Below, in pieces: positions 3,136 to 22,007 of a stretch of 33,869 nt of DNA. The DNA lies in NCBI GenBank assembly GCA_011959925.1, contig BLMD01000392.1, positions 1 through 33,869 on the forward strand. Reading direction: 5' to 3'. The notes beneath the pieces were generated by a model. The model did not search any database. It was not told the DNA's origin and worked only from the letters and a program-made list of their open reading frames with translations. Origin of the DNA: Lachnospiraceae bacterium (GTDB lineage Bacteria > Bacillota > Clostridia > Lachnospirales > Lachnospiraceae). Both the position numbers and the translations under genes were made by a program. Every line of letters begins with the position of its first letter. The first letter of the stretch is position 1.

Positions 3136-3150
3136 CCTTGCTTCCAGAAA

Positions 3151-5512: not shown

Positions 5513-5583
5513 TATCCTTTTCGGAAAATTGGCTTTTCTATTATAAAATCTCCTTACAACACAGATAGGAGGTTTTTGTATTT

Positions 5584-6516: not shown

Positions 6517-6520
6517 AACG

Positions 6521-7915
6521 ATGAAGTTATATTTGAAAGAGTGTAAAAAGATTGCAGAAAGCGTGATTTATTATTTCTTTATCGCTATTTTGGTTTTTAG
6601 CTGGTTCCAGAATTTTCGGGGAGTGACTAAAACAGAAATCAATTGGGAAAAGGGTATTCCCCCGGCAGATATAGGTTTTGAACGCTCATTACTGTCCAAA
6701 CCATCCGAGGAGGATGATTACTTTGGCAGTAAAGTTTCAGAGGATGACCCGGCGGCAATCATGATGGGCGTTACAAGGGCGTTGCTGTCAGAATATGAAA
6801 GCAATCGTTACGCCACATATCCCCTTGGATACTATAAAGCGATTACACTTAGCGATGATGAGCAAAAACGTGTACTTGAAATACTTTGTGAAATAACGGG
6901 ATTGACGGAAGAACAATTAAAAGATTTGCCAGAAGATTATTTTCCGGCAGTCACAGGCACAATTATTTCCTTTGATGCAATGAGTGTTGATGAAAATGGA
7001 AATTTGAATACGGTGATGGGAAACAGGGCAGACACAGAAAGCGGAGATGATAAATATAAGCATTTTGTATCACGGGTCACGTATGAACATTTCAAAGAGC
7101 TAATGCAGGAAATGGAAAATATGATAGGGGAAAACGGTTCACGGTATTCCCCCGAAATGATGATTACCTATTTTGGCATGTCTGAAATGACTTATGAGGA
7201 AGCATGTGAGGAATATAACCAGACAATCAATAAGGATAAAGTGGCGGGCGGTTTTGCACGGTTATTTTGTGATTATATGGGATTGGAACTGGGCTTGTAC
7301 CCTATATTTTTGGTAGTGCTTATATGGATGAAAGACCGCATGGGAAATGCGTCAGAATTGATTTACAGCAAAAAAATATCTTCGGCAAAGCTGGTGGTTT
7401 TGAGATGTTTGGCAAGTATCACTATGGTTCTCCTGCCTGTTTTGCTGTTAAGTTTGGAATCTCTTGTGCCGCTTATATCATTTGGCGCTAAGAAAGGTAT
7501 TTCAGTAGACTATTTTGCGTATATCAAATACATTTTATGGTGGCTTCTGCCAGAGGTCATGGCGGTATCCGCAATCGGAATATTTTTCACTTTGCTCACA
7601 GACTCTCCGATTGCAATTGCCATTCAATTCCTTTGGTGGATGGTTGATAAGGGAGTAACTGGACTGTCAGGGGACACGAAAGCAGCGACTTTCATGATAA
7701 GACACAATACATTGCGTGGCTATGAAATAATACAAGATGAATTTCAAATGATTTGTACGAACAGGCTGCTTATGGCGGGAATCGGTATTCTATTTGTCAT
7801 TCTGTCCATATGGGTTCTTAAGTTTAAGCGGAAAGGAAAAATAAATGCGGCAAATTTCTATCACAGATTTTTTGGACATATGCAGGACAAACTTTCTTTT
7901 GGCAGTAAGAAATAA
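6521..7915 (+). CDS. ABC-type membrane protein with large outer domain (464 aa)
   Basis: Starts 4 bases after the ATPase stop, with GGGAGGG just upstream. One membrane helix (~15-32) is followed by an extracytoplasmic region of about 200 mostly acidic residues, then a C-terminal bundle of about five helices (~248-266, ~290-312, ~335-360, ~366-385, ~408-430). A helix, soluble domain and bundle in this order is seen in ABC-2-like permeases paired with two-component systems in Clostridia. No enzymatic motif is seen. Its last 71 bases overlap the next gene in another frame, which supports tight coupling. The exact family is not recognised. Confidence 0.72.
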   Translation: MKLYLKECKKIAESVIYYFFIAILVFSWFQNFRGVTKTEINWEKGIPPADIGFERSLLSKPSEEDDYFGSKVSEDDPAAIMMGVTRALLSEYESNRYATYPLGYYKAITLSDDEQKRVLEILCEITGLTEEQLKDLPEDYFPAVTGTIISFDAMSVDENGNLNTVMGNRADTESGDDKYKHFVSRVTYEHFKELMQEMENMIGENGSRYSPEMMITYFGMSEMTYEEACEEYNQTINKDKVAGGFARLFCDYMGLELGLYPIFLVVLIWMKDRMGNASELIYSKKISSAKLVVLRCLASITMVLLPVLLLSLESLVPLISFGAKKGISVDYFAYIKYILWWLLPEVMAVSAIGIFFTLLTDSPIAIAIQFLWWMVDKGVTGLSGDTKAATFMIRHNTLRGYEIIQDEFQMICTNRLLMAGIGILFVILSIWVLKFKRKGKINAANFYHRFFGHMQDKLSFGSKK

Positions 7916-8483
7916 CTTATTTTTGGCTATTGTTTATTTGTTGATAATTCCTTTACTAAGGGGGATTGCAAATTTAGATATGGTTCGTTCTGCGGAATGT
8001 TTGGAACAGGCTGTAATACTAACAGGAATATTTCTCATAGCTCCGCTGTCTGCTCCAGAACAGTCTAAGGCAATACAGGACGTAGTTTGCACAAAGAAAA
8101 TTCCTCATTGGAAAATCTTATTGCTGCGGTTCATCATGTCAATGCTGCTGCTAATTCTGATAGTATGCCTGTTCTCTGGAATTATGGTATGGAAAAACTG
8201 TATATTTCCCTTTATGCCTTATGTGGCGGGAACAGTGATAAGCGCAATGGCATTGGGGAGCTTTGGATTTGCAGCAGCCATATTCAGCAATTCTGTTATT
8301 GCAGGTTACTTGGCGTCAATCGGATATTTTCTTTTAAATTCTTTGGGGAATGTATCAGAGGATAGTATTTTCTATTTGTTCTCAATGGGAAAAGGCAATT
8401 ATTCCACAAAGATATGGCTTTTCGGTTTAAGTTTGCTGGTAATTGCAGTAGTTTTTATTTACGAAAGAAGAAAGAGATATTGA
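7845..8483 (+). CDS. Second ABC-type membrane subunit (212 aa)
   Basis: Small polytopic protein with about six hydrophobic segments (~20-42, ~55-72, ~92-118, ~125-150, ~153-172, ~188-207) and a basic C-terminus YERRKRY. Its start lies 71 bases inside the preceding gene, preceded by GGAAAGGAAAA. With the ATPase and the 464-residue protein it would make a heteromeric transporter under the two-component system upstream. No substrate can be assigned. The overlap is long but the frame is open, hydrophobic and ends with the operon, so I take the upstream ATG; a later start is possible. Confidence 0.68.
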   Translation: MRQISITDFLDICRTNFLLAVRNNLFLAIVYLLIIPLLRGIANLDMVRSAECLEQAVILTGIFLIAPLSAPEQSKAIQDVVCTKKIPHWKILLLRFIMSMLLLILIVCLFSGIMVWKNCIFPFMPYVAGTVISAMALGSFGFAAAIFSNSVIAGYLASIGYFLLNSLGNVSEDSIFYLFSMGKGNYSTKIWLFGLSLLVIAVVFIYERRKRY

Positions 8484-8530
8484 TAAAAAATCATTGTGGT
8501 ACTTGCCCACCGAATAAAAAATACGAAATC

Positions 8531-8555
8531 GCCGTTTTCTGCGCCCGGAAACGGC
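8531..8555 (+). terminator. Possible terminator of the two-component/ABC unit
   Basis: GCCGTTTTC (8531-8539) pairs with GGAAACGGC (8547-8555), with one G-T pair, around a 7-base loop. It lies 47 bases after the last ABC gene. The T-run after it is poor (ATTTGCTT), so termination strength is uncertain. Confidence 0.45.
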
Positions 8556-8617
8556 ATTTGCTTAAAAAATGTTTGTTTTAAATACAGCAATTTTTTCAAT
8601 TTATATACCAACAGGGA

Positions 8618-8660
8618 TACGTTTATTTTCCGCGGTTCGAATTCTGGTACGTTTATTTTC
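8618..8660 (+). repeat. Direct repeat TACGTTTATTTTC, two copies 30 bp apart
   Basis: The 13-mer occurs at 8618-8630 and 8648-8660, exactly 30 bases apart, in a stretch without a clear gene. Equal phase (about three helical turns) could mark a protein-binding site. No function is known to me. Confidence 0.5.
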
Positions 8661-8692
8661 GAGTTTTTTACGATTGGTCATGAAAAATAACT

Positions 8693-8911
8693 ATGCCGAT
8701 TGGCTTTTCAAACGATATTGAAAAAAGTGCGTATCAAAATTATTATATTAACCTTGGGTTTGATGAAGAGAAAGTTAATAAATTCAATTTAGTTAGTGGG
8801 TCGGAGATAGAGGGACGTCGTTTTTGCGGCATCCCCTCTGTCATTCCCAGGCAAAGATTTTTTTATAAAGCCTTTTGGACAGAATACGAATGTGGATGGA
8901 GTATGAAGTAA
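8693..8911 (+). CDS. Doubtful short ORF (72 aa)
   Basis: An open frame starting MPIGFSNDIEKSAYQNYYIN with no convincing ribosome binding site. Composition is protein-like, with the segment LGFDEEKVNKFNLVSGSEIE, but I recognise no family. It may be a gene remnant between the ABC unit and the toxin-antitoxin pair. Confidence 0.25.
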   Translation: MPIGFSNDIEKSAYQNYYINLGFDEEKVNKFNLVSGSEIEGRRFCGIPSVIPRQRFFYKAFWTEYECGWSMK

Positions 8912-8923
8912 AGATTGCTCTTT

Positions 8924-8940
8924 TGATAATATTCTGATAA
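8924..8940 (+). promoter_or_regulatory. Possible operator, TGATAA repeated 11 bp apart
   Basis: TGATAA at 8924-8929 and 8935-8940 is repeated one helical turn apart, 41 bases before the antitoxin start. Antitoxins of this class usually repress their own promoter, so this is a plausible binding site. No clean -35/-10 pair with standard spacing is visible. Confidence 0.3.
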
Positions 8941-8980
8941 AATTAGGATAGAATAAGTAACGAGAAAGGAGTGCTTAAAC

Positions 8981-9241
8981 ATGATACAGATTCGGCCTGT
9001 TTCTGACCTTAGAAATAAATTCCCGGAGATTGAGACCATCGTAAACAATGGGGAGCCGGTCTACCTTACAAAGAACGGTTATGGCGCGATGGTAGTTTTA
9101 AGCCTGGAGGAGTATGCAGGCCTGACAGACAGTATTGAAATGAAACTTGATGAAGCTGACCGGCAGGCGGCTATATCGGAAGAGAGGCTTTCCCATGAAA
9201 CAGTCTTCCGTAATGCAAAGGGTGCGGTGTATGGAAAATAA
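8981..9241 (+). CDS. Phd/YefM-family antitoxin
   Basis: The 86-residue protein begins with the DNA-binding domain typical of Phd/YefM antitoxins: RPVSDLRNKFPEIETIVNNG, then EPVYLTKNGYGAMVVLSLEEY. A charged C-terminal tail follows that would wrap and neutralise the toxin. ATG 8981 follows GAAAGGAG. The gene overlaps the toxin gene by 11 bases, as is usual when the antitoxin is made first and in excess. It should bind its own promoter together with the toxin. Placed beside a partition module, it likely stabilises the mobile element by killing or arresting cells that lose it. Confidence 0.9.
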   Translation: MIQIRPVSDLRNKFPEIETIVNNGEPVYLTKNGYGAMVVLSLEEYAGLTDSIEMKLDEADRQAAISEERLSHETVFRNAKGAVYGK

Positions 9242-9545
9242 ACCCTATCAGCTCCGGTATTTGCCGATATTTGAGCAGGATTTAATCAGTACGGCGAATT
9301 ATATTACGAATGTTTTGAAAAATGAGGATGCGGCGCTTCGGCTGATTGATGATGTGGAGTCCGCTATCCTGGAAAGGCTGGATAATCCTGTTGCCTTTGA
9401 GCCATACCGTTCTGCAAAAAAGCGTGACCATCCTTATTATCGAATTTATGTGAGAAATTATGTTGTCTATTATGTGGTGATTGGCGATGTGATGGAGGTT
9501 CGGCGCCTGATATATGGTGCAAGGGATACCGACAGCCACTTATAA
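9231..9545 (+). CDS. RelE/ParE-family toxin
   Basis: The 104-residue product starts MENKPYQLRYLPIFEQDLIS and shows the ParE/RelE fold pattern: an N-terminal strand, helices with AALRLIDDVESAILERLDNP, then strands YYRIYVRNYVVYYVV and VMEVRRLIYGARD. Members are either ribosome-dependent RNases or gyrase poisons; the sequence alone does not settle which, though the pairing with a Phd-type antitoxin is common to both. ATG 9231 is chosen over an upstream in-frame ATG at 9147 because AAAGGGTG precedes it and because this is the family's usual N-terminus. The upstream ATG would bury most of the antitoxin tail. Confidence 0.88.
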   Translation: MENKPYQLRYLPIFEQDLISTANYITNVLKNEDAALRLIDDVESAILERLDNPVAFEPYRSAKKRDHPYYRIYVRNYVVYYVVIGDVMEVRRLIYGARDTDSHL

Positions 9546-9737
9546 CGAATACAGGATCCAGAGCAGTTAGTCTTTGATGATTAGCTGCTTTTTTGTATGT
9601 TTCTTTTTTATAATGCGTATTTTGGTTGTAAATGCGTATATTAAACCGTGTAATGATTATATAGGTTATCTACTTATGGAAACTGTTTTTCTATTCATAG
9701 GCATAGAAAATATTTTTGAAATTCAGGAGGTTTTATT
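9546..9737. promoter_or_regulatory. AT-rich leader of the ParM-like gene with AATGCGTAT repeats
   Basis: This 190-base AT-rich gap holds two copies of AATGCGTAT (9612-9620 and 9631-9639), 19 bases apart, and ends with AGGAGG before the ParM-like start. In ParMRC systems the centromere and operator parC lies upstream of parM and consists of short direct repeats, so this is a candidate site. Two copies are few compared with known parC arrays. Confidence 0.35.
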
Positions 9738-10658
9738 ATGTTGGTATCCATCGATCATGGCAACTATGCCATAAAAACGCCGAATGACTCATTTGTATCC
9801 GGTCTTTCCGAACATACGGCCAAGCCGCCAATGGCAGAAGAGATATTGGAGTATGACGGAAAATTTTGGACTTTGAGCGGGCAGCGGTTAAGTTATATGA
9901 GGGATAAAACCTGTGATGACCGCTATTTTATTCTGTCTTTATTTGCCATAGCGAAGGAAATGGAACGGTCCGGGTATTATTCCCCGCTGGAACAGATCCA
10001 GTTAGCAGTCGGCCTCCCGCCTGAACATTATGGTATACTGAAAGATAAGTTTGCCGGTTATTTCAAACGGGGAATCGTTTCATTTGCGTATAAGGACAAG
10101 CCCTATACGGTGATGATCAACCGTGTTATGGTATTTCCGCAGGCATATGCCGCCGTAGTGCCGCAGAGCAGCCTGGTTGTGCATACGCTCCGCATTTTCA
10201 TTATTGACGTAGGCGGTTATACGACAGACGTGCTGCTCCTTCAGAATGGCAAGCCGGACCTTCAGTTCTGCCGTTCGCTTGAGACTGGCATTATTACGAT
10301 GAATAACGAAATCATTCGCAAAGTCGGCGCCTTGCACGATATGCTGATCAGCGATGAACATATCACGGCTGTGCTGCGGGGCGAAGACAGTGTCATACTT
10401 CCGGATGACGTGAAAACGGCAATCTATGAGGCGGCAAAGCAGCATGCAAATGATATTTTGAACCGCCTGCGCGAGCTTCAGGTGGATCTGCGTGCGAATC
10501 CCGCTGTATTTATCGGAGGGGGCAGCATCCTGCTTCGCCCGTTTTTTGAGGCGTCGCGGCTGGTGGCAAAAGCTGATTTTGTGGAATCCGCCAATGCGAA
10601 TGCCCTTGGGTATGAAATGCTGGCAAGGAAACAGCTTTCCCTTCGCCCTACCGAGTAA
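9738..10658 (+). CDS. ParM/StbA-like actin-family ATPase (306 aa)
   Basis: Actin-fold protein of the plasmid segregation type. The first phosphate loop is at the N-terminus (SIDHGNYAIK), the second at IIDVGGYTTDVLLLQNG (~155-170), and the adenosine motif is AVFIGGGSILLRPFF (~258-272). Length is within the range of ParM and Alp proteins. ATG follows AGGAGG at 8 bases. With the small gene just downstream it forms a type II partition pair that pushes replicated copies apart as filaments. Its presence in an integrative element suggests that the excised circle replicates or must be segregated. Confidence 0.85.
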   Translation: MLVSIDHGNYAIKTPNDSFVSGLSEHTAKPPMAEEILEYDGKFWTLSGQRLSYMRDKTCDDRYFILSLFAIAKEMERSGYYSPLEQIQLAVGLPPEHYGILKDKFAGYFKRGIVSFAYKDKPYTVMINRVMVFPQAYAAVVPQSSLVVHTLRIFIIDVGGYTTDVLLLQNGKPDLQFCRSLETGIITMNNEIIRKVGALHDMLISDEHITAVLRGEDSVILPDDVKTAIYEAAKQHANDILNRLRELQVDLRANPAVFIGGGSILLRPFFEASRLVAKADFVESANANALGYEMLARKQLSLRPTE

Positions 10659-10676
10659 TGGGCGGAGGGATGCGTA

Positions 10677-11039
10677 GTGAAAAAAGATGGAAAATATCGT
10701 TTTACCCTTCAGTTTGGGGCTGATTCAGAGGAACAGATCCGGGTAGGGGAATTCCTGGAAAGCTTGGGCAACAAAAAAAGCGCCGTTATGGTGGACGTGC
10801 TGAATGAGTATCTGGCGTCCCGCCCGGAATTACAAAAGGCGCATGGTAAAATAGAAGTGAAAGTCGCTTCCGGTTATAATCGGGATAGGATGGAACAGAT
10901 GATACGGCAGATAGTAGAAGAACATATTGCCAAGATGCAGTTAACCGAAATTCAGGCAGATGTCCCACAGGATAAAATCCCGGAAACAATGGAAGACGAT
11001 ATTGCGCAGATGCTTGACAATCTCGATTTGTTTCAGTAA
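10677..11039 (+). CDS. Small partner of the ParM-like protein (ParR-like adaptor?)
   Basis: The 120-residue product starts with GTG 10677, 6 bases after GGAGGG, and 18 bases after the ParM-like stop. The N-terminal part (KYRFTLQFGADSEEQIRVGE, then FLESLGNKKSAVMVDVLNEY) fits a ribbon-helix-helix DNA-binding fold. A basic middle and an acidic C-terminal tail (~95-120, AQMLDNLDLF) could bind the filament end. This is the position and size of ParR in ParMRC systems. The assignment rests on context and pattern; the sequence family is not firmly recognised. Confidence 0.65.
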   Translation: MKKDGKYRFTLQFGADSEEQIRVGEFLESLGNKKSAVMVDVLNEYLASRPELQKAHGKIEVKVASGYNRDRMEQMIRQIVEEHIAKMQLTEIQADVPQDKIPETMEDDIAQMLDNLDLFQ

Positions 11040-11050
11040 TGGCAAAAGTG

Positions 11051-11074
11051 GACCTGCTAAGGCTATGGCAGGTT
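11051..11074 (+). repeat. Hairpin at the left end of an IS200/IS605-type remnant
   Basis: GACCTGC (11051-11057) pairs with GCAGGTT (11068-11074), with one G-T pair, around a 10-base loop, 36 bases before the transposase start. IS200/IS605 elements carry subterminal hairpins that the Y1 transposase recognises, so this is probably the left-end structure. Confidence 0.5.
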
Positions 11075-11109
11075 CGCCAACCGTATTAAGGACAAAGGAG
11101 GTTATCCAT

Positions 11110-11229
11110 ATGGATAGTAATAATTTATCATATACGAAGTGGAATTGTAAATATCATATTGTTTTTGCACAAAAGTTCAGAAGGAAAATCATATATGAGC
11201 AGTTAAAGCGGGACATTGCAAATATATAG
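11110..11229 (+). pseudogene. tnpA: IS200/IS605 TnpA transposase, N-terminal remnant (39 aa)
   Basis: ATG 11110 follows AAAGGAGG. The product starts MDSNNLSYTKWNCKYHIVFA followed by KFRRKIIYEQLKRDIANI, the typical opening of Y1 transposases of the IS200 group, which are about 150 residues long. The frame stops after 39 codons, and the HUH motif and catalytic Tyr are absent. The following ~80 bases (to TAA 11306-11308) read in another frame as LYDLGLRSGYPIVWQAELEA, an unrelated C-terminal scrap I do not recognise. The insertion sequence is therefore dead and its right part has been replaced. Confidence 0.8.
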
Positions 11230-11371
11230 CTTTCAACTCTACGATCTTGGACTGAGGAGCGGCTATCCGATTGTGTGGCAGGCAGAGCTTGAGGCATTTT
11301 TTGAATAAACAAGGAAAATAATGGTAAGAATATTTTAGGAAGGTAAGAGATGGAGGTGAATATCAGCCATT

Positions 11372-11596
11372 ATGAAAGATAGTACGAATCAAATATCAAA
11401 TCTTACGGATCTTGTTGATATCAGGGACGTTAAAGTCGATTGCAGTCTTTCAACTGAAGAAAGGGTGCGGTCATATGTTGAACAGATTAAGAACCCGTAT
11501 TGTTTTCGCGTAGGTGATGTAAAGGTTCGTGTTTCCTATGCAGATAAAGCACAGTCATTGGATGATAGCTTCCGTGAAATGATAGCATCTATGTAA
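11372..11596 (+). CDS. Small conserved-type protein beside the recombinases (74 aa)
   Basis: The product begins MKDSTNQISNLTDLVDIRDV and contains LSTEERVRSYVEQIKNPYCF followed by VGDVKVRVSYAD. From memory it resembles small uncharacterised proteins (DUF6870-like) that sit next to serine recombinases in Lachnospiraceae elements. GGAGGTGA lies 12 bases or so before ATG 11372, slightly far but usable. No membrane segment or catalytic motif is seen. It could be an excision or directionality factor for the recombinases, but this is only suggested by position. Confidence 0.55.
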   Translation: MKDSTNQISNLTDLVDIRDVKVDCSLSTEERVRSYVEQIKNPYCFRVGDVKVRVSYADKAQSLDDSFREMIASM

Positions 11597-11697
11597 TGGA
11601 AATACCCAGGGGGTATACCTCTATGCCATTTGGCAGATGCATGGAAACAATTACCTGCGGTAAATCCACGAAAACGGCTGGATTTTGGAAGGACCTA

Positions 11698-11706
11698 TGC
11701 TATAAT
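11698..11706 (+). promoter_or_regulatory. Extended -10 promoter for the recombinase operon
   Basis: TGCTATAAT (11698-11706) is a perfect -10 with an extended TGn element, 108 bases before the first recombinase. No strong -35 is seen 17 bases upstream, which extended -10 promoters tolerate. Confidence 0.5.
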
Positions 11707-11763
11707 GAGTGTGGACAAAATCAGTGAACACCTTGCTGTTTATACGGATTTCCGTTATACATG

Positions 11764-11794
11764 CTTATGAAAACCTGTTTTTGGTTTTCATAAG
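11764..11794. repeat. 12-bp perfect inverted repeat before the recombinases
   Basis: CTTATGAAAACC (11764-11775) and GGTTTTCATAAG (11783-11794) form a perfect stem with a TGTTTTT loop, 20 bases before the first recombinase start. It lies between the promoter and the gene, so it could be an operator or an RNA hairpin in the leader. No T-run follows, which speaks against a terminator. Confidence 0.6.
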
Positions 11795-11814
11795 ACACAG
11801 ACAGGAGTGGCGCT

Positions 11815-13506
11815 ATGAAGCAAATACAGGACCAATTATTTAAGGTCGCCATCTACCTACGCTTGTCGAAGGATGATGGCGATTTTTCTTCTGCCGAAAA
11901 CGGAAAGTCGGAGAGCAATAGCATTCATAATCAGCGAGAGCTTTTGATGGCGTTTTTGGCAAAACATCCGGAAATGGAACTCTACGATGAGTATAAGGAT
12001 GATGGACGGACTGGCACAAATTTTGACCGGCCCCAGTTTCAGCGCATGATGGATGATGTGCGAAAAGGCAGCGTCAACTGTGTCATTGTTAAGGATCTAT
12101 CCAGATTCGGAAGAGACTATATTGAATGTGGAAAATATATCGAAAAAATATTCCCCCAGCTGGGCGTTCGGTTTATTTCCATAAATGACGGATTTGATAC
12201 AAGGGCGGCCGGCAGTGCAGACAGCATTGTCATTCCTTTTAAGAATCTGATTAACGATTCTTATAGCCGTGATATTTCTATTAAAGTGCGCAGCAATTTG
12301 GATGTAAAGCGCAAGAACGGGGAGTTTATCTCAAACTTTGCCGTGTACGGTTATAAGAAGGATCCGGAGAATAAAAACCAGCTCATTGTGGACGAAGATG
12401 CTGCGGAGGTTGTCAGGGACATTTTTAAATGGAAAGTTGAGGGTTTAAGCCCCAACAGGATTGCCGACAAGCTGAACGGACTTGGTATTCTTTCCCCTAT
12501 GGAATACAAGAAAGCCAGGGGAAGCAAGTTTAAAACGGAATTTAAAACAAATGGAAAAGCGCTCTGGAGCCATGTGGCTGTACGGAGGATACTGAAAAAC
12601 GAGGTATATGTAGGGGTATTGGTGCAGGGAAAACGCACAACGCCCAATTATAAGACAAAGAAATTCATCTATAAAAACGAAAGCGAATGGGTACGGGTGG
12701 AAGACCGCCATGATGCAATTATCTCCCGGCCTCAGTTCGACCTGGTACAGCAGCTGCTCCGTGAAGATACCCGCGCTAGTTCCGAAAAGAGAGAGGTGCA
12801 TCCCTATTGCGGGCGTATCTTTTGCGGGGATTGCGGGGCGCCTGCCGTCCGGAAAACCGCGGGTAGCTGCGGCAGGCGGTATGTCTACTATGTGTGCAGT
12901 GCAAATAAAGCAAACCGCGATGTCTGCAGCAAGCACAGCATACGGGAGGATGTTCTCGATAAAGCAGTTCTGGCAACGATTCAGCGGCAAATCGAAGTGA
13001 TTTTGGATATGGATCGTGCCATGCAGCAAATCGAAGCCCTTTCATGGGAAAAAGCGGAAATCAAAAAGATTGACGCCAACATTGAGTATCAGAACCAGGT
13101 AATTGAGAAAAACAATGCTTTGCGGCTTGGAGTGTATGAAGATCTCCGGGCAGGTATTTTAACAAAAGAAGAGTTTCTGACATTAAAAGAAGAGTTCATG
13201 GAGCGGATAGATACAGCAAAACAGCTGATAGAACAGCTGACCAGTGACAAATCCGGCATCCAGCACGGACTTAAGAAGCAGCAGAGCTGGCTGTCGGGGT
13301 TCCGGGAATATAAGAATATTTCAGAAATCTCCAGGATTATTGTCGTCAACCTGATTGAGCGGATTAACATTTTTGAAAACGCTGAGATTGAAGTGGTATT
13401 CCGCCAGCGTGACCAGTTTGCGAATATTATGTCTTTTCTGGAAGAACAGGAACAAAAGAAGGCGGCGAAAGGGGCAATCCCATTTCCAGGATTGGAGGTG
13501 GTGTAA
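11815..13506 (+). CDS. Large serine recombinase 1 (563 aa)
   Basis: Site-specific recombinase that cuts DNA through a phosphoserine link. The N-terminal resolvase domain (~10-165) has the catalytic Ser at 18 (YLRLSKDDGD) and the conserved Arg-rich helix KDLSRFGRDY. The recombinase domain (~175-290, GYKKDP...YVGVLVQGK) follows, then a zinc ribbon with CGRIFCGDCG and a later Cys pair (~335-375). A coiled-coil region (~400-500) completes it, as in TnpX/TndX-like integrases. Length is normal. It is first of three recombinases in one operon and ends directly at the start of the second (TAA then ATG). The three together are expected to integrate and excise the element. Confidence 0.93.
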   Translation: MKQIQDQLFKVAIYLRLSKDDGDFSSAENGKSESNSIHNQRELLMAFLAKHPEMELYDEYKDDGRTGTNFDRPQFQRMMDDVRKGSVNCVIVKDLSRFGRDYIECGKYIEKIFPQLGVRFISINDGFDTRAAGSADSIVIPFKNLINDSYSRDISIKVRSNLDVKRKNGEFISNFAVYGYKKDPENKNQLIVDEDAAEVVRDIFKWKVEGLSPNRIADKLNGLGILSPMEYKKARGSKFKTEFKTNGKALWSHVAVRRILKNEVYVGVLVQGKRTTPNYKTKKFIYKNESEWVRVEDRHDAIISRPQFDLVQQLLREDTRASSEKREVHPYCGRIFCGDCGAPAVRKTAGSCGRRYVYYVCSANKANRDVCSKHSIREDVLDKAVLATIQRQIEVILDMDRAMQQIEALSWEKAEIKKIDANIEYQNQVIEKNNALRLGVYEDLRAGILTKEEFLTLKEEFMERIDTAKQLIEQLTSDKSGIQHGLKKQQSWLSGFREYKNISEISRIIVVNLIERINIFENAEIEVVFRQRDQFANIMSFLEEQEQKKAAKGAIPFPGLEVV

Positions 13507-15216
13507 ATGGCCCGTGTATCCCGTAAGAGAGGAACAGAGAAAGCGGAGGGCTTCAAGGAGGCAGGGATTTACCATACTGGCATCTATCTTCGCCTTTCTG
13601 TGGAGGATAATGGCAAAAAGGATGCGGATTCCATGGAGAACCAGAAAAATCTGTTGATGGAATACGTCAGCGCAAGACCATATTTGATGCTGACGGATAT
13701 TTATATGGATAACGGATTTACTGGTACAGACTTTGAACGTCCGGAGTTTAACCGGATGCTGCAGGATGCAAGAGATGGCAGGATTCACTGTATTGTGGTA
13801 AAAGACCTGTCGCGTCTGGGGCGTAATTATGTAGAAGCCGGAGACTATATTGAAAAGGTGTTCCCATTCCTGGGAATCCGGTTTATTGCTGTGAATGATC
13901 ATTATGACAGTGATTCCCTGACGTCTGGCGATGAATTGGGAGCTTCTTTGAAAAATGTGGTAAATGACGTCTATGCCAAAGATATATCCCGAAAAGTGGG
14001 TACGGCAATGAAACAAAAGCGTCTGCGCGGCGAATATATTGGAAATTATGCCCCCTATGGATATCTGAAGGATCCGAAAGCTAAGAACCATCTGATTATA
14101 GACCAGGAGATTGCGCCAATTGTAGTTGAGATTTTTGAATTAAGGGCAAAAGGGGATGGTATCAATACAATCGCCAGAATATTAAATGAACGGGATATCC
14201 CGTCACCGGGACGGCTTCGGTATGAGCGTGGGATCATCACAAATAATAACAAGAAGGGGTCCGGGCTTCTCTGGAGCCGTCATGTTCTTTCAGATCTGCT
14301 GAAGAATGTTGTGTATATTGGGAACCTGGCCCAAGGGCGCAGCGCCAGCTGTCTTTATAAAGGAATCCCATTTCATTGGACAGAGGAATCGGAGTGGGAT
14401 CTAGTGGAAAATACACATGAAGCGATTATCAGTCCGGAACTATGGAAAAGGGTACAGGAAGTCACAGCCAGGAAGAGCCGGGAGGCAAAAGAATCGCATG
14501 GAAAATATGCGAACCTTCCGAAACGGGAAAATCCGTATGGCTCACTGCTGCGGTGCGCAGATTGCGGACGGGTCATCAAGCAGGTTCATGCGTACAATAC
14601 CTCTAAGCGGAACGGAACCGTGGTTTACTACAATTACAAATGTCCGGAGAATATTGAGCTTGGGCGTCTGGCGTGTCCAAAGAAGAATATCCGGGCGGCA
14701 GATTTGGATGAGGCAGTTCTTGCGACAATCCGAAAGCAGATGGAGATATTCATGGATACGCAGAAAATCTTGAAGGAATTGATTGCACAGGAAAAAGAAA
14801 CAGCAAAGCAGGAAGCGCCGATTTCGAGGGTCAAGGACATTCAAAAGGAAATTGACCGGCGAAAGGGCCTCTGCACAGCCCTCTATACGGATTTGAAAGA
14901 AGGGATTTTGACGCAGGATGAATATTTTTATGCGAAGATGCGCTATCAGGAAGAAATAGATTCTCTGGAAAAGGAGCTTTTGGAATTGAAAAGTATCCGG
15001 GGCAAGGCAAGCGAGGCGGCTCAGGGGGAAAAGAAGTGGGAACAGCTGATTTCGAAATATTATAAGGCACAGACACTGAACCCTGCCATGATGGAAGCCA
15101 TCGTAAAAGAGATCAAGCTGTATGCGGACAACAGCATATCCATTGAATTCCGCTATATGAATGAGTTTGAGGAACTGCTGCAGGAGTGCGAACGTATACG
15201 AAGGGAGGTTGCATGA
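13507..15216 (+). CDS. Large serine recombinase 2 (569 aa)
   Basis: Same architecture as its neighbours. The resolvase domain has catalytic Ser31 in IYLRLSVEDNG, the motif KDLSRLGRNY, and DMENQK-like Arg/Gln helices. The recombinase domain (~185-310) ends VYIGNLAQGR. The zinc ribbon has CADCGRVIKQ and a second pair CPENIELGRLACPKKN, and a coiled coil occupies ~430-510. The ATG abuts the stop of recombinase 1, and its ribosome binding site GGAGGTGG lies inside that gene. An N-terminal extension of about 20 basic residues precedes the fold. The three proteins are similar but clearly diverged, so they are likely specialised and not recent copies. Confidence 0.93.
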   Translation: MARVSRKRGTEKAEGFKEAGIYHTGIYLRLSVEDNGKKDADSMENQKNLLMEYVSARPYLMLTDIYMDNGFTGTDFERPEFNRMLQDARDGRIHCIVVKDLSRLGRNYVEAGDYIEKVFPFLGIRFIAVNDHYDSDSLTSGDELGASLKNVVNDVYAKDISRKVGTAMKQKRLRGEYIGNYAPYGYLKDPKAKNHLIIDQEIAPIVVEIFELRAKGDGINTIARILNERDIPSPGRLRYERGIITNNNKKGSGLLWSRHVLSDLLKNVVYIGNLAQGRSASCLYKGIPFHWTEESEWDLVENTHEAIISPELWKRVQEVTARKSREAKESHGKYANLPKRENPYGSLLRCADCGRVIKQVHAYNTSKRNGTVVYYNYKCPENIELGRLACPKKNIRAADLDEAVLATIRKQMEIFMDTQKILKELIAQEKETAKQEAPISRVKDIQKEIDRRKGLCTALYTDLKEGILTQDEYFYAKMRYQEEIDSLEKELLELKSIRGKASEAAQGEKKWEQLISKYYKAQTLNPAMMEAIVKEIKLYADNSISIEFRYMNEFEELLQECERIRREVA

Positions 15217-15219
15217 TGT

Positions 15220-16785
15220 ATGATGAGGTGTATCGCTGCATACCTGAGGCTTTCTCAGGATGATGTGGATATAGGGAACAATTCATGGAAGGATGAGAGC
15301 GACAGTATCCACAGCCAGCGCCTGTTGATTCAGCAGTATAGGAAAGAGCATACGGATTTAAGCAATCTTCCGGTCATAGAGTTTGTGGATGACGGATATA
15401 CGGGAACCAACTTTGACAGACCCGAATTTCAGCGTATGATTGAGAAGGTCAGAAGCGGAGAGGTTGTCTGTATCATTGTAAAGGATTTATCCCGGTTTGG
15501 AAGAAATTATCTGGAGGTAGGGGACTATCTGGAGCATATTTTCCCTTTTCTGGGTGTGCGGTTCATATCTGTCAATGACCATTATGACAGTAAGAGCTAT
15601 ATGGGGACAACCGGTGGAATTGATGTGGCGTTCCGTAATCTGATTTATCAGCGGTACAGCCAGGATCTTTCTGAAAAAGTAAAGTCTGCCATGCACCTTA
15701 AAATGTCAAGAGGACAGTATGTGACACATTGCCCCTATGGGTATAAGAAGAAACAGGGTGTGAAACATGAGATGATTCCGGATCCGGTAACGGCTCCAAT
15801 TGTGCGGGAGATTTTTGAAGCTACAATCGGCGGAATGAAATCCACGGAAATAGCCGCAATGCTGAATGCAAAACAGGTTCCTACGCCGATGGAGTATAAG
15901 AAGGTGAACAGGAAGATGCACAGTGACGCCATGTGGAGCCATCAAGCGGTCTTGCGTATTATTAAGGAATATAAGTATACGGGCGCCATGGTGAATTTTA
16001 AATGTGAAAATGAAACGATACGGGCGTCTGTCCAGCGCAAATGCAAGCCGGAGGAATGGGTGGTTGTGGAGAACCGACACGAGGCAATTGTGACACATGA
16101 GGAATATGAGGCCGCCAATGCAAAGCTGCGGAAAGTGAATTACAAAGGAGCGAAGCGGGGTGACCTTTCTGACCGTGTCTATTATTGCGCATATTGCGGC
16201 AGGCGGCTGCGGAAAACATTCGGCAATGATGAATACTATTCCTGCTCAACCAAGCTTTACCGCACGGATTCGCCATGCTGCCAGGTCAGATGGAGCCGCA
16301 CGGAAATTGAGGAAATAGTTTTGGCGGCGTATAAGGCGCAGCTTATGTTGATGAATGAAAGATATAAAAAGCTAAAATCCCAGCCGCAGTCAAATCCGCT
16401 CGAGGATTGCAGAAATGCGGGACAGAGTATCCAGAAAAACCTGGATGGGTTCACTTCCAAAAACCTGACCTTGTATGAGCAATACCGCGACGGCAAATTT
16501 GATAAAGAGGTATTCCTGAAAAAGAAAAACCAATTATTGCAGCAGAAGGAGGAATTACAGGCACAGCTTGCAAAGCTGCAGGAGCAGGAAGAGGAAATAA
16601 TCAGACAGCAGAAGGGCGAGGAGCAAAAAAACCAGGCGCTAAAGGCATCTGAGGATATGCTGGCAAAGGAAGAGGGTGAGATGCGGATCCAGATGTACGA
16701 TGCAATCGAGAAAGTGATTGTATATGTCGGAAAAGAGATTGATATTCATTGGAAGTTTGACCTCTCGTTTGAAAATATTCCATAA
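15220..16785 (+). CDS. Large serine recombinase 3 (521 aa)
   Basis: Resolvase domain with catalytic Ser12 (AYLRLSQDDVD) and KDLSRFGRNY. The recombinase domain (~165-275, GYKKKQ...YTGAMVNFK) and a zinc ribbon with CAYCGRRLRK and a CSTKLYRTDSPCCQVRWS segment follow. A strongly charged coiled coil (~400-490) comes near the C-terminus. It starts 3 bases after recombinase 2; GGGAGG at ~15203 serves ATG 15220 or ATG 15223. It is the last gene of the element: the SpoVT frame begins about 140 bases later, so the attachment site lies just downstream. No terminator follows, and transcription may run into spoVT. Confidence 0.93.
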   Translation: MMRCIAAYLRLSQDDVDIGNNSWKDESDSIHSQRLLIQQYRKEHTDLSNLPVIEFVDDGYTGTNFDRPEFQRMIEKVRSGEVVCIIVKDLSRFGRNYLEVGDYLEHIFPFLGVRFISVNDHYDSKSYMGTTGGIDVAFRNLIYQRYSQDLSEKVKSAMHLKMSRGQYVTHCPYGYKKKQGVKHEMIPDPVTAPIVREIFEATIGGMKSTEIAAMLNAKQVPTPMEYKKVNRKMHSDAMWSHQAVLRIIKEYKYTGAMVNFKCENETIRASVQRKCKPEEWVVVENRHEAIVTHEEYEAANAKLRKVNYKGAKRGDLSDRVYYCAYCGRRLRKTFGNDEYYSCSTKLYRTDSPCCQVRWSRTEIEEIVLAAYKAQLMLMNERYKKLKSQPQSNPLEDCRNAGQSIQKNLDGFTSKNLTLYEQYRDGKFDKEVFLKKKNQLLQQKEELQAQLAKLQEQEEEIIRQQKGEEQKNQALKASEDMLAKEEGEMRIQMYDAIEKVIVYVGKEIDIHWKFDLSFENIP

Positions 16786-16803
16786 GGACAAAATTTGTCT
16801 TAT
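16782..16803. repeat. Imperfect palindrome at the right end of the element
   Basis: ATAAGGACAAA (16782-16792) mirrors TTTGTCTTAT (16794-16803) with one unpaired base, overlapping the stop of recombinase 3. It has no GC-rich stem, so it is unlikely to be a terminator. Position suggests recombinase binding, but this is inference. Confidence 0.45.
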
Positions 16804-16925
16804 TATATCACATGGGGCAGCTTTATTTTGGGTATGAGTGTTCTTTCGGGATTTTCTGGAAATCCAGTGTTTATGCGGGTTTTCAGAAATTTAAAAAAAT
16901 GTTTTGTGAGGACTTGACACAATCA
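16786..16925. other. Candidate attR: element end joined to spoVT
   Basis: Between the last recombinase stop and the first conserved SpoVT codon (GAC 16926) lie 140 bases with no sign of the normal spoVT promoter or first ten codons. The host-element join must be at or close to 16915-16926. It contains TTGACA at 16914-16919, but no good -10 follows at 17 bases. I see no copy of a typical spoVT 5' end elsewhere in the window. Confidence 0.55.
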
Positions 16926-17444
16926 GACGATTTGGGAAGAGTAGTAGTGCCGAAGGAAATCCGCAGGACGCTGCGGATCCGGGAAGGTGATCCGCTGGAG
17001 ATTTTTACGGACCGGCAGGGGGAAATAATCTTAAAAAAATATTCGCCGATCGGAGAGTTAAGCCAGTTTGCAGGGCAGTATGCGGAAAGCCTTTCTCAGA
17101 CGACCGGGAATCTGGTCTGTATTACGGACAGAGATCACGTAGTAGCCGTCGCCGGCAGCGGAAAAAAGGAATTTGACGGGAAACCTTTAAGCAAGCAGAT
17201 GGAAGGGATCATTGAAAACCGGGAAGATTTTGTGGCGAATAAAGAAGACGAGGGGTTTGTAAAGATTACATTGGACGATACCGGAGAACTGTGTTCGCAG
17301 GCAGTGGCCACGATCATCTGCCAGGGAGATGCGATCGGAGCGGTTGTGATTTCCGACAAAAATGAGAAACATCCGATGGGTGATACGGAACATAAGCTGG
17401 CCGTTACGGCAGCAGGCTTTTTGGGCAGGCAGATGGAGCAGTAA
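16812..17444 (+). CDS. spoVT: SpoVT sporulation regulator with its N-terminal strand replaced
   Basis: From residue 39 the frame is a textbook SpoVT: DDLGRVVVPKEIRRTLRIRE, then GDPLEIF and EIILKKYSPIGEL (AbrB-type swapped-hairpin domain). A GAF-like domain follows, ending AVTAAGFLGRQMEQ. SpoVT activates and tunes late forespore genes. Normal SpoVT (about 178 residues) starts with ten conserved residues of the MKATGIVRRI type directly before DDLGR. Here that first beta strand is missing, and the upstream in-frame codons (MGQLYFGYEC...) come from the element side. ATG 16812 has no ribosome binding site, nor do ATG 16899 or TTG 16914. I judge the gene split by insertion and probably non-functional unless the element excises. 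The listed start is merely the longest frame. Confidence 0.85.
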   Translation: MGQLYFGYECSFGIFWKSSVYAGFQKFKKMFCEDLTQSDDLGRVVVPKEIRRTLRIREGDPLEIFTDRQGEIILKKYSPIGELSQFAGQYAESLSQTTGNLVCITDRDHVVAVAGSGKKEFDGKPLSKQMEGIIENREDFVANKEDEGFVKITLDDTGELCSQAVATIICQGDAIGAVVISDKNEKHPMGDTEHKLAVTAAGFLGRQMEQ

Positions 17445-17690: not shown

Positions 17691-20600
17691 ATGGGTAATT
17701 GGAAGAGGTTTTTGTCCCTGGCAATTACAGCGGGCATAACGATCTCTGCCGTTTTTGTTCCGCAGAATGCGTACGGAGCGGCAAAGGAAACAAAGGTAAC
17801 CGACGATCAGTTAAGCGATACAAAAGCAGAGGAACCCGATGCCTGGGGAGCTTTGCCGAATGAGGAACAGCTGCACTATATGAAAACGGGTCTTTCGGCG
17901 TTCTGCCATTTCGGACCCAATACATATAATAATGTGGAGTGGGGAGAATCTTACGGAACCAGGAAACCCGCCGATATATTTAAACTTAAGGCGCCGCAGA
18001 AGTTTGACGCGGAACGAATCGTAAAAACGGTAAAAGAAGCCGGTTTTAACAGAATGATACTGACGGCAAAACATCATGACGGATTTGGATTGTGGGACAG
18101 CGCGCTGACGGATTATGATATCGGAAGCACACCGTACGGCGGAGATATTTTAGAAGAGCTTTCAGACGCATGTACCAAGTATAATCTGGATATGGGATGT
18201 TATTTGTCGCCCTGGGATATCCACGAAGATCATTACGGCTGCTTTGGCGACAATAATAACGGACCGAATTCTACGGGATATACGGATTATGATAAATTAT
18301 ATCAGGATGAGATCAAAGAAATCTGCACGGCGGTAAAAAAAGACGCGAACGGAAATGAGCTGAAGGATGAGAACGGAAATCCTGTCTACAAATACGGAAA
18401 TAATCATCCTAACAGGCGTTCCGACCGTTTTGTCGAATGGTGGATGGACGGCGCTCAGGGAGGCGGCAGCAATACACAGACGTTTACCTGGCCTGGGATA
18501 TTTGAAGCCATCCGGGGCACGAATCCAAACTGCCAGATTTTCGGAACGCATAAAGCCGGCAAGCCGGAGGTAAACGGAGAGACGGTCAAACTGGGAAGTA
18601 CGGGCGGCATTCACTGGATCGGAAACGAAGCCGGGTGGGCGGCGGACGAAACCTGGGCAAAACTCATCGCGGGTGAAAATTATGAGGATACATCGCTGTT
18701 TCCAAGGGAAAACGGCGGAATCATAGGTAAGCCCGACGGCGACTGCTGGTCGGTTCCGGAGGTTGACGTAAGAATGCTGTCCGGATGGTTCTGGACAGAG
18801 AATAATCCGGACAGTTCGGTAAAATCGGCAAAACAGCTGGGAAATATTTATTTTAATTCCGTAGGTCACGGAGCCGTGCTGCTGTTAAATCTTTCTCCGA
18901 ATAAGACCGGTTCCGTAGGAGAACTGCAGCTGAACCGGTTCAAACAATTCGGCGAAAATATAAAGAATACATTTCGGGACGATCTTACAAAAGAAGACGG
19001 CGTAACGATATCCGCAACTTCCGTATGGAAAAATTCGAAAGCGTTTTCGCCCAATAACGTCCTGGACGAAATACCGGAAGGGGAAACATACGATACTACC
19101 TATTGGGCTCCGGCAGAGGGAGAGACGACGGGCAGCCTGGAAATCGATCTGGGCGGACATAAAGTATTTGACGTCGTATCGATCGAAGAGTATATCCAGA
19201 AAGGCCAGACCATTTCTTCTTTTTCCGTCGAATATAAAGACGTGAACGGAGACTGGCAGGCGTTCGGCAGCGGAAAAACAATTTCTTCCAAACGTTTATG
19301 CAGAAGGACGCCTGTAGAAGGAACAGCTGTCCGCATCAACATTCTTTCGGCGCATTCCACCCCGATGATTAATGACGTCGGCGTGTTTAAGGCGGTAGAG
19401 GATTTTGAGATGGAAGCGGAAGGGAAAGAGAAGCTTCCGGAGAATCTGAAAACAATTACCATGAAAGACGCCGTGAAAACAGGCGAATGGACGTCCGAAA
19501 ATAACGGAGCTTACCAGTATACAGACCAACAGAATAATTCTGCGCAGTTTACGTTTACAGGGGTAAAAGCATGGGTACTCGGAAGAAAAGCATTAAACCA
19601 CGGCAGGGTTGACATTTATCTGGATAACGAGTTGCAGGAGACGGTGGATACGAACGCTTCTTCGGCGCAATTGCGGCAGATTCTTTATCAGACGAACGAG
19701 CTGCCCTACGGGGAGCATACCATTCGATTGGTCTGTAAAGACACTGGTAAGATCGTTGGCCTCGACAGGGTAGAATATACGGACGGCAGCGGTATTTTTT
19801 CGATGCATCCGGCGGAAACCAATCTGCTGTACGGAGAGACGGCAGATGTAGAAATTGTCCGTACGCTTGGAAGCCGGGGACGTGTGGAGATTACTTATAC
19901 GACCGAGTCGGCAGGCGCCGAGCAGGGCGTCAATTATAAGCATCTGGCGGGTTCTGTATTGTTTGAGGAAGGAGAGACTTCTAAGACGATCACATTGACG
20001 GGGTTGGTCAGCATTGACAGAAATGTAGACGGAAAAGATTTTTATTTTGTAATCCGATCGGATTCGGGAGACGCAGCGATCGGTCCGGTTTCTTCCACGC
20101 ATGCGATTTGTTATACGGTAGATCCGGAGCGGATTTTGAATGAATGCAGGGCGGTCAATCCGGATGATTATAAAGATGCGGGGAAGGAGGCATTTCAAAA
20201 AGCGCTGCGGGAGCTGGAACTGTTTATGGAAAGCGGCATAGCGACAGAAAATGCAAAAAAAGCGGCTGCCAGCGCGGCATACAGAGCCAAACAGGCTCTG
20301 GTCAGATGGGATGGGAATTACTCGCAAAACGAACCATACAAACTTCCGTCCGGTTATCAGGAGACAAAAACAGTAGAAGCAGAGCGTTTTATTTTGGATG
20401 CGTCGGAAGCAAAAAACCCGAATCATTATGTTCGTATTTCCGAAAACGGTTCGATCCAGGAGGTCAACTGGTTTGAAGACGGAAACAAAATAAAATTACC
20501 GTTTTACGCAGAGAAAGCAGGTACTTATAAAGTAACGGCGCATTATCGAAGCGGAAGAAGTGCGAACAGCCCAAATGCGCTGAACTGGAGCGGCACAAAT

Positions 20601-22007
20601 GTAGAAAGCGGCAGCCTGGATGTGCATGGGGAAGGACAGGCAGATACCTATCGAACGGCGGAATTTACAATGCGGATTACGGCTGCCGGAGCCGGAGAAT
20701 TGGTATTTACGGCGGATAGTAAAGGATCGCCCGTTTTGGATAAATTCGACGTTTTGTATCAGGATGCTGCGGCTCCTTCCGGATCGGCAGTCACGGGTGT
20801 AGCGTTAAATTATGAGGAACTGACGATTGGAATGGATGAAGAATGCGCTCTTTTAACGGCAGAGGTTTTTCCCGCAGACGCAGGAAATAAACAGGTCACC
20901 TTTACAAGCGCCGATACTGAAATTGCGGCGGTAGACGAATATGGCATTGTCAAAGGAATCAAAGACGGAACGACGACCGTTACCGTTGCGACGGAAGACG
21001 GAAATAAGACGGCGGAGTGTATCGTGCATGTTGTGATTGAACAGGAAGCGCTGCAATATACAGAAGGAAAAGAAGAATTATCCGTGATCGTTTCGGACAA
21101 TACCTATACAGAAGCGGTCCAGGATGAGAGCAAACCGTATTCTGCCGCAATGAAACAGAATTTTGAAGAAGCATATCGGGCGGCATCGACCGCGGTGGGA
21201 CGGGACGATACAAAATTAAAGGAATTGATCGCCTGTACCGAAGCGTTAAAGAAAGCCCGGAACGGACTGGATCTCGAGGAAGCGGTTGCAGAGGCGGCAG
21301 CTTTTGCCAACGCAGGCGGGTATACGGAATCTTCCATGAGAGCTTTTATGCAGAAGTATAACACAGCAGTCTCGGCGGTATCGGAAGCAGGATATGCACA
21401 GGAAACGGCGCAAAGCCTTAAGGCTATTCTGGCAGAGTTAAAAGAAATGCAGAAAAAACTGGAAAAACTCGTTACCATACAGACTCTGCAAACGCCGGCA
21501 GGCGTAAAAGCGGTCAGCAAAGCGACCGGAGAGGTTGTCGTTACGTTCCAAAAAGTAACAAATGCGACTTCCTATGACATTTATCGCCAGTCTGTAAAGA
21601 TCGCTTCTGTGACAGGAACTTCGTATACGGACGCAAAGGCGCCGGGAGGGAAGACTTCTATCTATACCGTAATTGCGGTTTCCTCCGATCCGAATTATAA
21701 AAACAGCGCCGCCAGCTCAGGAGCGAGCGTGAGGATGTTGAACACGGTCAAGAAGCTGAAAATAAAAGCCGTAAAAGGCGGTGCGAAAATTACGTTTCAA
21801 AAAGTAAAAGGCGCTAAGAAATACCTTGTTTACCGTGCGTCAAAAGAAGACGGTCCTTATAAAAAAGTGAAAACCTTAAAAGCGAAACAGACCAGCTTTA
21901 CGGATAAGAAGGCGAAGAAGGGAAAGAATTTCTATAGAGTAGTCGTACAAAGCGGGAAATCTTACAGCCCTGCGGCTGCCAAAAAAGTAACGGTGAAAAA
22001 GAAATAA
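17691..22007 (+). CDS. Secreted multidomain GH29 alpha-L-fucosidase (1438 aa)
   Basis: Removes terminal fucose from host glycans such as mucin outside the cell. A signal peptide (1-~29, cleavage near AYGA) leads into a GH29 barrel (~55-425) with AKHHDGF (124-132) and the nucleophile Asp253 in VEWWMDGAQGG. Next are an F5/8-type-C-like module (~435-568), a beta-sandwich module (~590-703) and a Calx-beta-like module (~706-795). A FIVAR-like helical stretch (~820-875), a CBM6-like module (~890-1012) and a bacterial Ig-like group 2 domain (~1022-1105) follow. The end comprises helical FIVAR-like repeats (~1110-1270) and two FN3-like modules with a very basic tail. There is no LPXTG sorting signal, so release or non-covalent wall binding is likely. 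AGGAGG (17677-17682) fixes ATG 17691. It is monocistronic with its own terminator. Confidence 0.92.
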   Translation: MGNWKRFLSLAITAGITISAVFVPQNAYGAAKETKVTDDQLSDTKAEEPDAWGALPNEEQLHYMKTGLSAFCHFGPNTYNNVEWGESYGTRKPADIFKLKAPQKFDAERIVKTVKEAGFNRMILTAKHHDGFGLWDSALTDYDIGSTPYGGDILEELSDACTKYNLDMGCYLSPWDIHEDHYGCFGDNNNGPNSTGYTDYDKLYQDEIKEICTAVKKDANGNELKDENGNPVYKYGNNHPNRRSDRFVEWWMDGAQGGGSNTQTFTWPGIFEAIRGTNPNCQIFGTHKAGKPEVNGETVKLGSTGGIHWIGNEAGWAADETWAKLIAGENYEDTSLFPRENGGIIGKPDGDCWSVPEVDVRMLSGWFWTENNPDSSVKSAKQLGNIYFNSVGHGAVLLLNLSPNKTGSVGELQLNRFKQFGENIKNTFRDDLTKEDGVTISATSVWKNSKAFSPNNVLDEIPEGETYDTTYWAPAEGETTGSLEIDLGGHKVFDVVSIEEYIQKGQTISSFSVEYKDVNGDWQAFGSGKTISSKRLCRRTPVEGTAVRINILSAHSTPMINDVGVFKAVEDFEMEAEGKEKLPENLKTITMKDAVKTGEWTSENNGAYQYTDQQNNSAQFTFTGVKAWVLGRKALNHGRVDIYLDNELQETVDTNASSAQLRQILYQTNELPYGEHTIRLVCKDTGKIVGLDRVEYTDGSGIFSMHPAETNLLYGETADVEIVRTLGSRGRVEITYTTESAGAEQGVNYKHLAGSVLFEEGETSKTITLTGLVSIDRNVDGKDFYFVIRSDSGDAAIGPVSSTHAICYTVDPERILNECRAVNPDDYKDAGKEAFQKALRELELFMESGIATENAKKAAASAAYRAKQALVRWDGNYSQNEPYKLPSGYQETKTVEAERFILDASEAKNPNHYVRISENGSIQEVNWFEDGNKIKLPFYAEKAGTYKVTAHYRSGRSANSPNALNWSGTNVESGSLDVHGEGQADTYRTAEFTMRITAAGAGELVFTADSKGSPVLDKFDVLYQDAAAPSGSAVTGVALNYEELTIGMDEECALLTAEVFPADAGNKQVTFTSADTEIAAVDEYGIVKGIKDGTTTVTVATEDGNKTAECIVHVVIEQEALQYTEGKEELSVIVSDNTYTEAVQDESKPYSAAMKQNFEEAYRAASTAVGRDDTKLKELIACTEALKKARNGLDLEEAVAEAAAFANAGGYTESSMRAFMQKYNTAVSAVSEAGYAQETAQSLKAILAELKEMQKKLEKLVTIQTLQTPAGVKAVSKATGEVVVTFQKVTNATSYDIYRQSVKIASVTGTSYTDAKAPGGKTSIYTVIAVSSDPNYKNSAASSGASVRMLNTVKKLKIKAVKGGAKITFQKVKGAKKYLVYRASKEDGPYKKVKTLKAKQTSFTDKKAKKGKNFYRVVVQSGKSYSPAAAKKVTVKKK

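Follow-up and report, generated by a model that had tools for sequence, protein, structure and literature searches.

How did the spoVT gene of this locus lose its beginning, and does the DNA lying in front of it act as a developmental switch or has it silenced the gene? The window analysed here is the whole 33,869-nucleotide contig (C391) of a Lachnospiraceae assembly. The earlier note, made from these letters alone, had proposed that an element with three serine recombinases is inserted in the 5' end of spoVT, with SpoVT homology beginning abruptly at DDLGR 140 bases after the last recombinase, and with the first strand of the protein, the promoter and the ribosome-binding site all absent. 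The homology does begin at GAC 16926 (residue 11, DDLGR), 140 bases past the stop of the third large serine recombinase (LSR3) at 16785, and the NCBIfam SpoVT model aligns from its position 9 only, scoring 234.4, just below the cut-off of 235.9. Pfam finds SpoVT_C and an AbrB/MazE-type domain in the remaining body. The features to which we refer, all on the + strand, are as follows.

1-16925, +: right-hand part of the integrated element, whose left end lies on contig C272 from 12867 (attR at 16926, attL on C272)
9738-10658, +: actin-like (ParM/MreB-type) protein, likely a partition gene (Pfam MreB-like_C, ALP_N)
10677-11039, +: small protein after the actin-like gene and conserved with it, possible partner
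11372-11596, +: DUF6870 small protein (Pfam), first gene of the recombinase operon
11815-13506, +: large serine recombinase 1 (LSR1), internal (Pfam Resolvase, Recombinase, Zn_ribbon_recom)
13507-15216, +: large serine recombinase 2, middle (Pfam Resolvase, Recombinase, Zn_ribbon_recom)
15220-16785, +: large serine recombinase 3 (LSR3), external, adjoining the junction (Pfam Resolvase, Recombinase; spoVT clade)
16914-16919, +: TTGACA, the -35 hexamer of the split promoter, equally spaced from the core in 15/15 right ends
16926-16927, +: GA, crossover dinucleotide of attR
16926-17444, +: spoVT body, codon 11 to stop, 172 codons, without its own promoter and start
17691-22007, +: host gene 3' of spoVT (ORF list), right flank, a large secreted protein, by eye a fucosidase-type enzyme

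The missing part of the gene lies elsewhere in the same assembly. Positions 12836-12868 of contig C272 hold a ribosome-binding site and ATGAAAGCAACAGGAATTGTGCGCAGAATAGAC, the first ten codons of spoVT, followed immediately by TAA and then by unrelated DNA, while the 1.45 kb preceding this piece match the region upstream of the intact spoVT of a relative (G012) at 77%. On sequence grounds the C272 junction must be the other, left end of the window's element. It was at this left end that the earlier note had suggested looking for the ten codons and the promoter, and there, beside host flank, they were found, separated from the body by a triple-recombinase element much as it had supposed. It had further named two observations that would speak against an insertion, a second intact spoVT in the genome and the same N-terminus in relatives free of the element. 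The assembly (418 contigs; completeness 92.9%, contamination 5.2%) contained a single SpoVT match and no second gene, and an uninterrupted ATGIVRRID(D/E)LGR was present in all 29 loci examined, which were the 29 best matches among the 50 relatives that gave a SpoVT hit and included 13/13 same-genus loci; no SpoVT match was obtained in the same-genus genome G002 (54% complete). On the right flank, part of the gene at 17691-22007 matches the same place in G012 (locus L002) at 65% DNA identity, a match absent in the other 12 of the 13 same-genus loci. Because C272 and the window contig do not overlap, the element would measure at least ~41.7 kb provided that it takes up the whole of C272 past attL, and its middle is perhaps not covered.

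Fifteen loci, some closely related to each other, have their junction at spoVT codon 11, a recurrence that excludes chance. A search with LSR3 in 397 genomes of the family gave six matches at E <= 1e-100. Five of these genomes, the window's included, have spoVT from codon 11 directly after LSR3; in the sixth (G258, LSR3 38% identical) the contig ends there and spoVT is intact elsewhere. Among 391 genomes of the class, 30 had matches at E <= 1e-90, and three of the 29 loci checked, from three other families, have spoVT at the junction (G656, G580 and G452, with LSR3s 60, 45 and 43% identical). The other 26 showed no spoVT within the ~1.5 kb examined, some being limited by the contig, and their LSR3s are at most 41% identical. 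Two of three named contigs, L035 (isolate C64_1, genome G434) and L037 (G435), likewise run into spoVT at codon 11, and the third (L036) ends after a broken LSR3, so that its site is unreadable. A related LSR3 was present at 19 loci of the viral collection, eleven of which were read for the junction (the other eight ending within or just after LSR3); the 19 comprise five that reach spoVT codon 11, one that runs into other DNA (L128), two of another group and eleven that end before the junction. Among the matches listed of one search, two of the interrupted genes appear (G000, the window's own genome, and G429).

The 14 spoVT LSR3s in a tree of 45 rows formed one clade with support 100/100; this tree omits L129, L134, L136-L143 and L146 (junction unreadable), G435 (a fragment) and L128 (3' end deleted), and three of its rows tagged 'other' (L044, L074 and L145) have unreadable sites. 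As judged from this tree and the junctions, one deep recombinase clade is tied to the same spoVT codon across several bacterial families. In L128 (6581), an element with 96% LSR3 identity in which the end of LSR3 is deleted, non-spoVT DNA follows right after the core, which we offer to read as a secondary site or a rearrangement. No plasmid or phage home of LSR3 emerged: the matches in 3 plasmid records and 19 of phages were without exception below 60% identity, the listed rows being 30-40%. Three co-oriented large serine recombinases adjoin spoVT in 14/14 element sources searched, partial at some contig ends, and DUF6870 lies upstream of LSR1 in 11/14, the other three contigs starting in or just before LSR1. 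The DUF6870 protein is a candidate accessory or directionality factor. The LSR3 zinc ribbon of the window falls below the Pfam cut-off (21.7 against 25.3 bits).

Comparison of the two ends pointed to how the element is joined. The ends of G366, G353 and G656 have only GA in common at the junction and the crossover dinucleotide is therefore GA; the window's element has AGAC at both ends, a very short direct repeat. TTGACA stands six bases before GA in 15/15 right ends, and nine bases past GA in all seven left ends found stands TATAAT (six) or TATATT (G149); those of G580, G429 and G435 were searched for and not found. Neither TTGACA at the right end nor GTTATA at the left varies. Joining the ends of the seven elements with both gives TTGACA-17-TATAAT/TATATT in 7/7, counts that are not independent, the elements being related, and in 6/7 this is the exact sigma-A-type consensus at best spacing, with 11/12 positions in the seventh. 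For the first five elements, the top-scoring promoter across the core matched 12, 12, 11, 12 and 12 of the 12 bases in the circle, compared with 7-9 for attL and attR and 5-6 for attB, and among 200,000 simulated sequences 12/12 was reached by two and 11/12 by 67; the controls here, for the forespore promoter and for the TTGACA tails below were first-order simulations, not shuffles. The joined ends thus form a predicted promoter that would be complete, and presumably active, only in the circle. It faces away from the recombinases and into the left-end genes, which in three elements are for replication, partition or transfer. No other site of at least 10/12 occurs in the first 960 bases of four of five left ends; the window's element has another promoter-like site there (11/12), 734 bases in. 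Neither a circle nor a joined attP was present in the window's own assembly, and the 397 family genomes gave one unrelated-looking match (G066), using a pattern that would miss some variants, for example that of G656. The 26 viral contigs that matched the attP pattern were discarded, none having a related recombinase at E 1e-20.

Promoters made by circle formation are familiar from other elements. Lyras and Rood reportedly described in 2000 that circle formation by the large serine recombinase of Tn4451/Tn4453 makes a joint promoter for TnpX, and the arrangement is alike here in that a -35 at one end and a -10 at the other are joined in the circle in 7/7 spoVT elements; the promoter there serves the recombinase, however, whereas that of the spoVT elements faces away from it, into replication, partition and transfer genes. 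Celli and Trieu-Cuot are said to have reported in 1998 that the transfer genes of Tn916 are expressed only after circularisation, but there through transcription running across the joined att site, while in the spoVT elements att itself splits the promoter. The same promoter register was not matched at fewer than two mismatches in two elements with right ends in hsdM-like reading frames, nor was a 5' hsdM motif present within ~78 kb in G649, so that the split promoter is so far seen in the spoVT clade. Downstream of non-spoVT recombinases TTGACA occurs in 15/26 tails against 4.3 expected, an excess that is only suggestive since the antisense word also occurs in 10/26; with these mixed controls, the half-promoter end may extend beyond the spoVT clade. 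The tails of L067, L069, L070, L073, L077, L078 and L080 share CTTGACAYRA after their serine recombinases.

One relative shows what such an element can carry. In G366 both ends are on one contig, with 62,329 bp between the GA cores. From the left end its genes run DUF5348, RepA_N, ParA, ParB, DUF4313, DUF3801, a T4SS coupling ATPase and Maff2, then TrbL-like, MT-A70, PrgI, a VirB4-type ATPase, NlpC/P60 and a CD1107-like protein, then a topoisomerase, a large helicase-like protein and the relaxase, and finally BREX-type genes (BrxP, BrxC, PglZ, DndA-like), IrrE and Cro-type regulators, DUF6870 and the three serine recombinases. With relaxase, coupling protein and VirB4 together, the G366 element is by its gene content a complete integrative and conjugative element (ICE) of 62.3 kb. 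Its BREX-type defence cargo occupies L051 334-13000 and L050 17459-18589, the DndA-like protein being a cysteine desulfurase. The left end of G149 has ParA, ParB and RepA_N on the + strand, and that of G656 a Bro-N protein, a PrgI-like protein below cut-off and a VirB4-type ATPase (+ strand).

All of 1-16925 in the window would belong to the element. The stretch with the actin-like gene is 89% identical in DNA in the C64_1 element, and the protein of 10677-11039 has no Pfam match. No conjugation genes were detected among the ORFs tested by Pfam, seven before the junction and ten on C272, and the left ends of this element and of that in G434 hold other cargo; that the window's element is a working ICE we infer from its relatives. 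The element also contains a pair of Phd/YefM antitoxin and ParE-type toxin (window 8981-9545), and C272 a further serine recombinase (L034 12717-14126, C272 30517-31926) that suggests a nested element. A recombinase-like frame with one TGA occurs on another contig of the same genome (G000:C80:2436-3986).

Taken together, we consider it probable that an ICE-kind element has its right end in the window, at spoVT codon 11, and that its joined ends make a split promoter which excision completes. One serine recombinase of the triplet, most likely the outermost LSR3, would insert the element at codon 11 and thereby part the promoter and first ten codons from the spoVT body. While the element is in the chromosome, spoVT would be silent and the split promoter off. 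Excision would restore spoVT and complete the promoter on the circle, where it would drive the left-end genes (replication, partition or transfer genes where readable), mainly in the mobile form. Against this reading count the search for a circle, which gave only the unrelated-looking G066 match, the negative Pfam result for conjugation genes in the window's element, the other cargo and second promoter-like site at its left end, and L128, which is not in spoVT. The simplest account is that of an ICE excising for transfer with spoVT as its conserved landing site, since the G366 relative is conjugative and transfer would explain excision.

Upstream of the spoVT start a forespore-type promoter, searched with the crude consensus G[ACT]AT[AG], 16-18 bases, [ACG]ATN[ACT]TA, occurs in 31/35 loci, whereas 300 simulations averaged 0.75 and never exceeded 4, one of 36 sequences (L025) being unmatched by the start pattern. 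Five of the seven split loci have it, reading into the element in the split state, and in 4/7 elements a stop follows right after the core of the 5' piece. Both parts, the 5' piece and the body, agree with the unbroken spoVT of relatives and would rejoin to an intact gene. The split bodies are open to their own stop in 11/11 readable cases; at the other four junctions two bodies are broken at about codon 33 (L130 and L135) and two end with the contig (L131 and L133). Sigma-G gave one long contiguous match, below the model's curated cut-off, in 6/7 hosts. In Clostridioides difficile spoVT is a forespore gene (PMC3789822), and for Bacillus cereus a severe sporulation defect has been reported (PMC5061766). 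The integrated state would thus probably block spore maturation, and silencing in that state is the likeliest answer to the question of switch or silencing.

Whether that silencing is lasting has to be weighed. It is possible, if doubtful, that spoVT was put out of use for good in a lineage that no longer needs mature spores; attR has no promoter, ribosome-binding site or start, sigG is also split in G434 and spoVT has its second break in two viral-collection contigs, yet none of the 11 readable bodies has decayed, and the window's body differs from that of L002 by 66 silent but only 2 amino-acid-changing differences, although a recent insertion would look alike. The open bodies, the pieces that would rejoin in frame and the contiguous sigma-G gene in 6/7 hosts also suit a sporulation switch, in which a developmentally timed directionality factor excises the element and restores spoVT as with skin, SPbeta and gin, the last of which splits gerE, carries a triplet of serine recombinases and leaves during sporulation (PMC5595907). 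We nevertheless regard such a switch as distinctly unlikely, for spoVT is a forespore gene and excision would strip the element from the spore's own chromosome, no forespore-type promoter was matched by our crude patterns at the recombinase operon in 4/4 elements, where a single weak mother-cell-type match (G434) was the only hit, and transfer genes already account for excision. An ICE that has to leave the chromosome in or shortly before the forespore so that the spore can mature, rides in the spore as a circle with its promoter completed and re-enters spoVT after germination is highly unlikely; if true, it would mean a heritable plasmid phase at the spore stage with replication and partition genes switched on by the circle promoter, in contrast to elements of the skin type, which are lost along with the mother cell.

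The split promoter itself and the reading frame at attR bear on two further readings. TTGACA and TATAAT could be recombinase-binding sequence with no promoter role, as conserved att arms are a requirement of serine integrases, the two arms look partly inverted-symmetric by eye and the promoter is a predicted one; the exactness of the consensus and its spacing, which simulated sequences almost never reach, makes this unlikely. That the element instead provides a new start, from which an altered SpoVT is still made at attR, we find scarcely credible. The frame is indeed open upstream, with in-frame starts at ATG 16812, ATG 16899 and TTG 16914, but the ATGs are not common to all elements and the first conserved strand, MKATGIVRRI, would be absent. 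The TTG, inside TTGACA, is the sole in-frame start at a fixed place across the 15 junctions, and because the bases before it differ (GTGAGGAC, GCACTTAC, GTGAATAC) no Shine-Dalgarno sequence is conserved, in agreement with the earlier note, which had seen no usable one before any of the three. A conserved alternative start at attR was accordingly rejected on comparison of the 15 junctions. We retain the ICE with a promoter completed by excision as the preferred reading.

Triplet-serine-integrase ICEs, insertions in sporulation genes and circle-made promoters are each known on their own. The target of yin, yabG, is a mother-cell gene. The genes sigK, gerE and spsM likewise act in the mother cell (PMC5595907). 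Skin (sigK), SPbeta (spsM) and yin (yabG) resemble the spoVT elements in lying within a sporulation gene and being removed by a serine recombinase, but are prophage-like and have been observed to excise (PMC10747680). Closer is gin, a non-phage element with three serine recombinases that splits the gene of a small sporulation regulator, gerE, in B. cereus; it is, however, 28.6 kb long, is described in the excerpted text of Abe et al. (2017, PMC5595907) as having no conjugation genes of its own, has been shown to excise in sporulation and targets a mother-cell gene, whereas the spoVT elements sit in a forespore gene and one relative is a full ICE. Streptococcal ICEs with a serine-integrase triplet (Ambroset et al. 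2016, PMC4701971), among which Tn1549-type conjugation modules occur, are alike in having three recombinases of the same orientation by the target, a disrupted gene and repeats of 2-8 bp. Their targets are mutT, traG and hsdM, unlike spoVT in other bacterial families here, and the excerpt of that paper used for this comparison makes no mention of a split promoter such as is predicted for the spoVT elements.

Among the hits listed from the open-licence papers searched, spoVT is nowhere described as an attachment site, in keeping with the earlier note, which knew of none, and the papers searched yielded no circle promoter facing the replication and transfer genes of an ICE. The spoVT site, its dedicated recombinase lineage and such a promoter thus look new within those papers. 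With this insertion a forespore regulator joins the sporulation genes used by mobile DNA as docking sites, and a single recombinase lineage has been kept to one site across several bacterial families. The predicted promoter would amount to a simple integration-sensing switch that insertion cuts in two and excision completes. Should these hosts depend on spoVT as strictly as C. difficile does, carriers could not finish spores unless the element leaves, which would bear on the passage of gut Clostridia between hosts.

Three smaller observations concern neighbouring sites. In isolate C64_1 (G434) sigG is split as well, into residues 2-96 (L087 7115-7426) and 91-253 (L088 13029-13517), the pieces lying ~170 kb apart on one contig and both containing TTCCCATGA; the 5' piece adjoins a serine-recombinase-like ORF, with phage-type genes by eye. 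In the two viral-collection contigs with the second break in spoVT (L135 4844 and L130 6106) the gene breaks off near codon 33, past GGCGACCC, and gives way to unrelated DNA, as though it offered a second landing site. Finally, a GGGTTTTC-like word recurs, by eye, ~40-60 bases in from each end of several elements (C272 from 12905, window ~16870), and these words are possible accessory sites.
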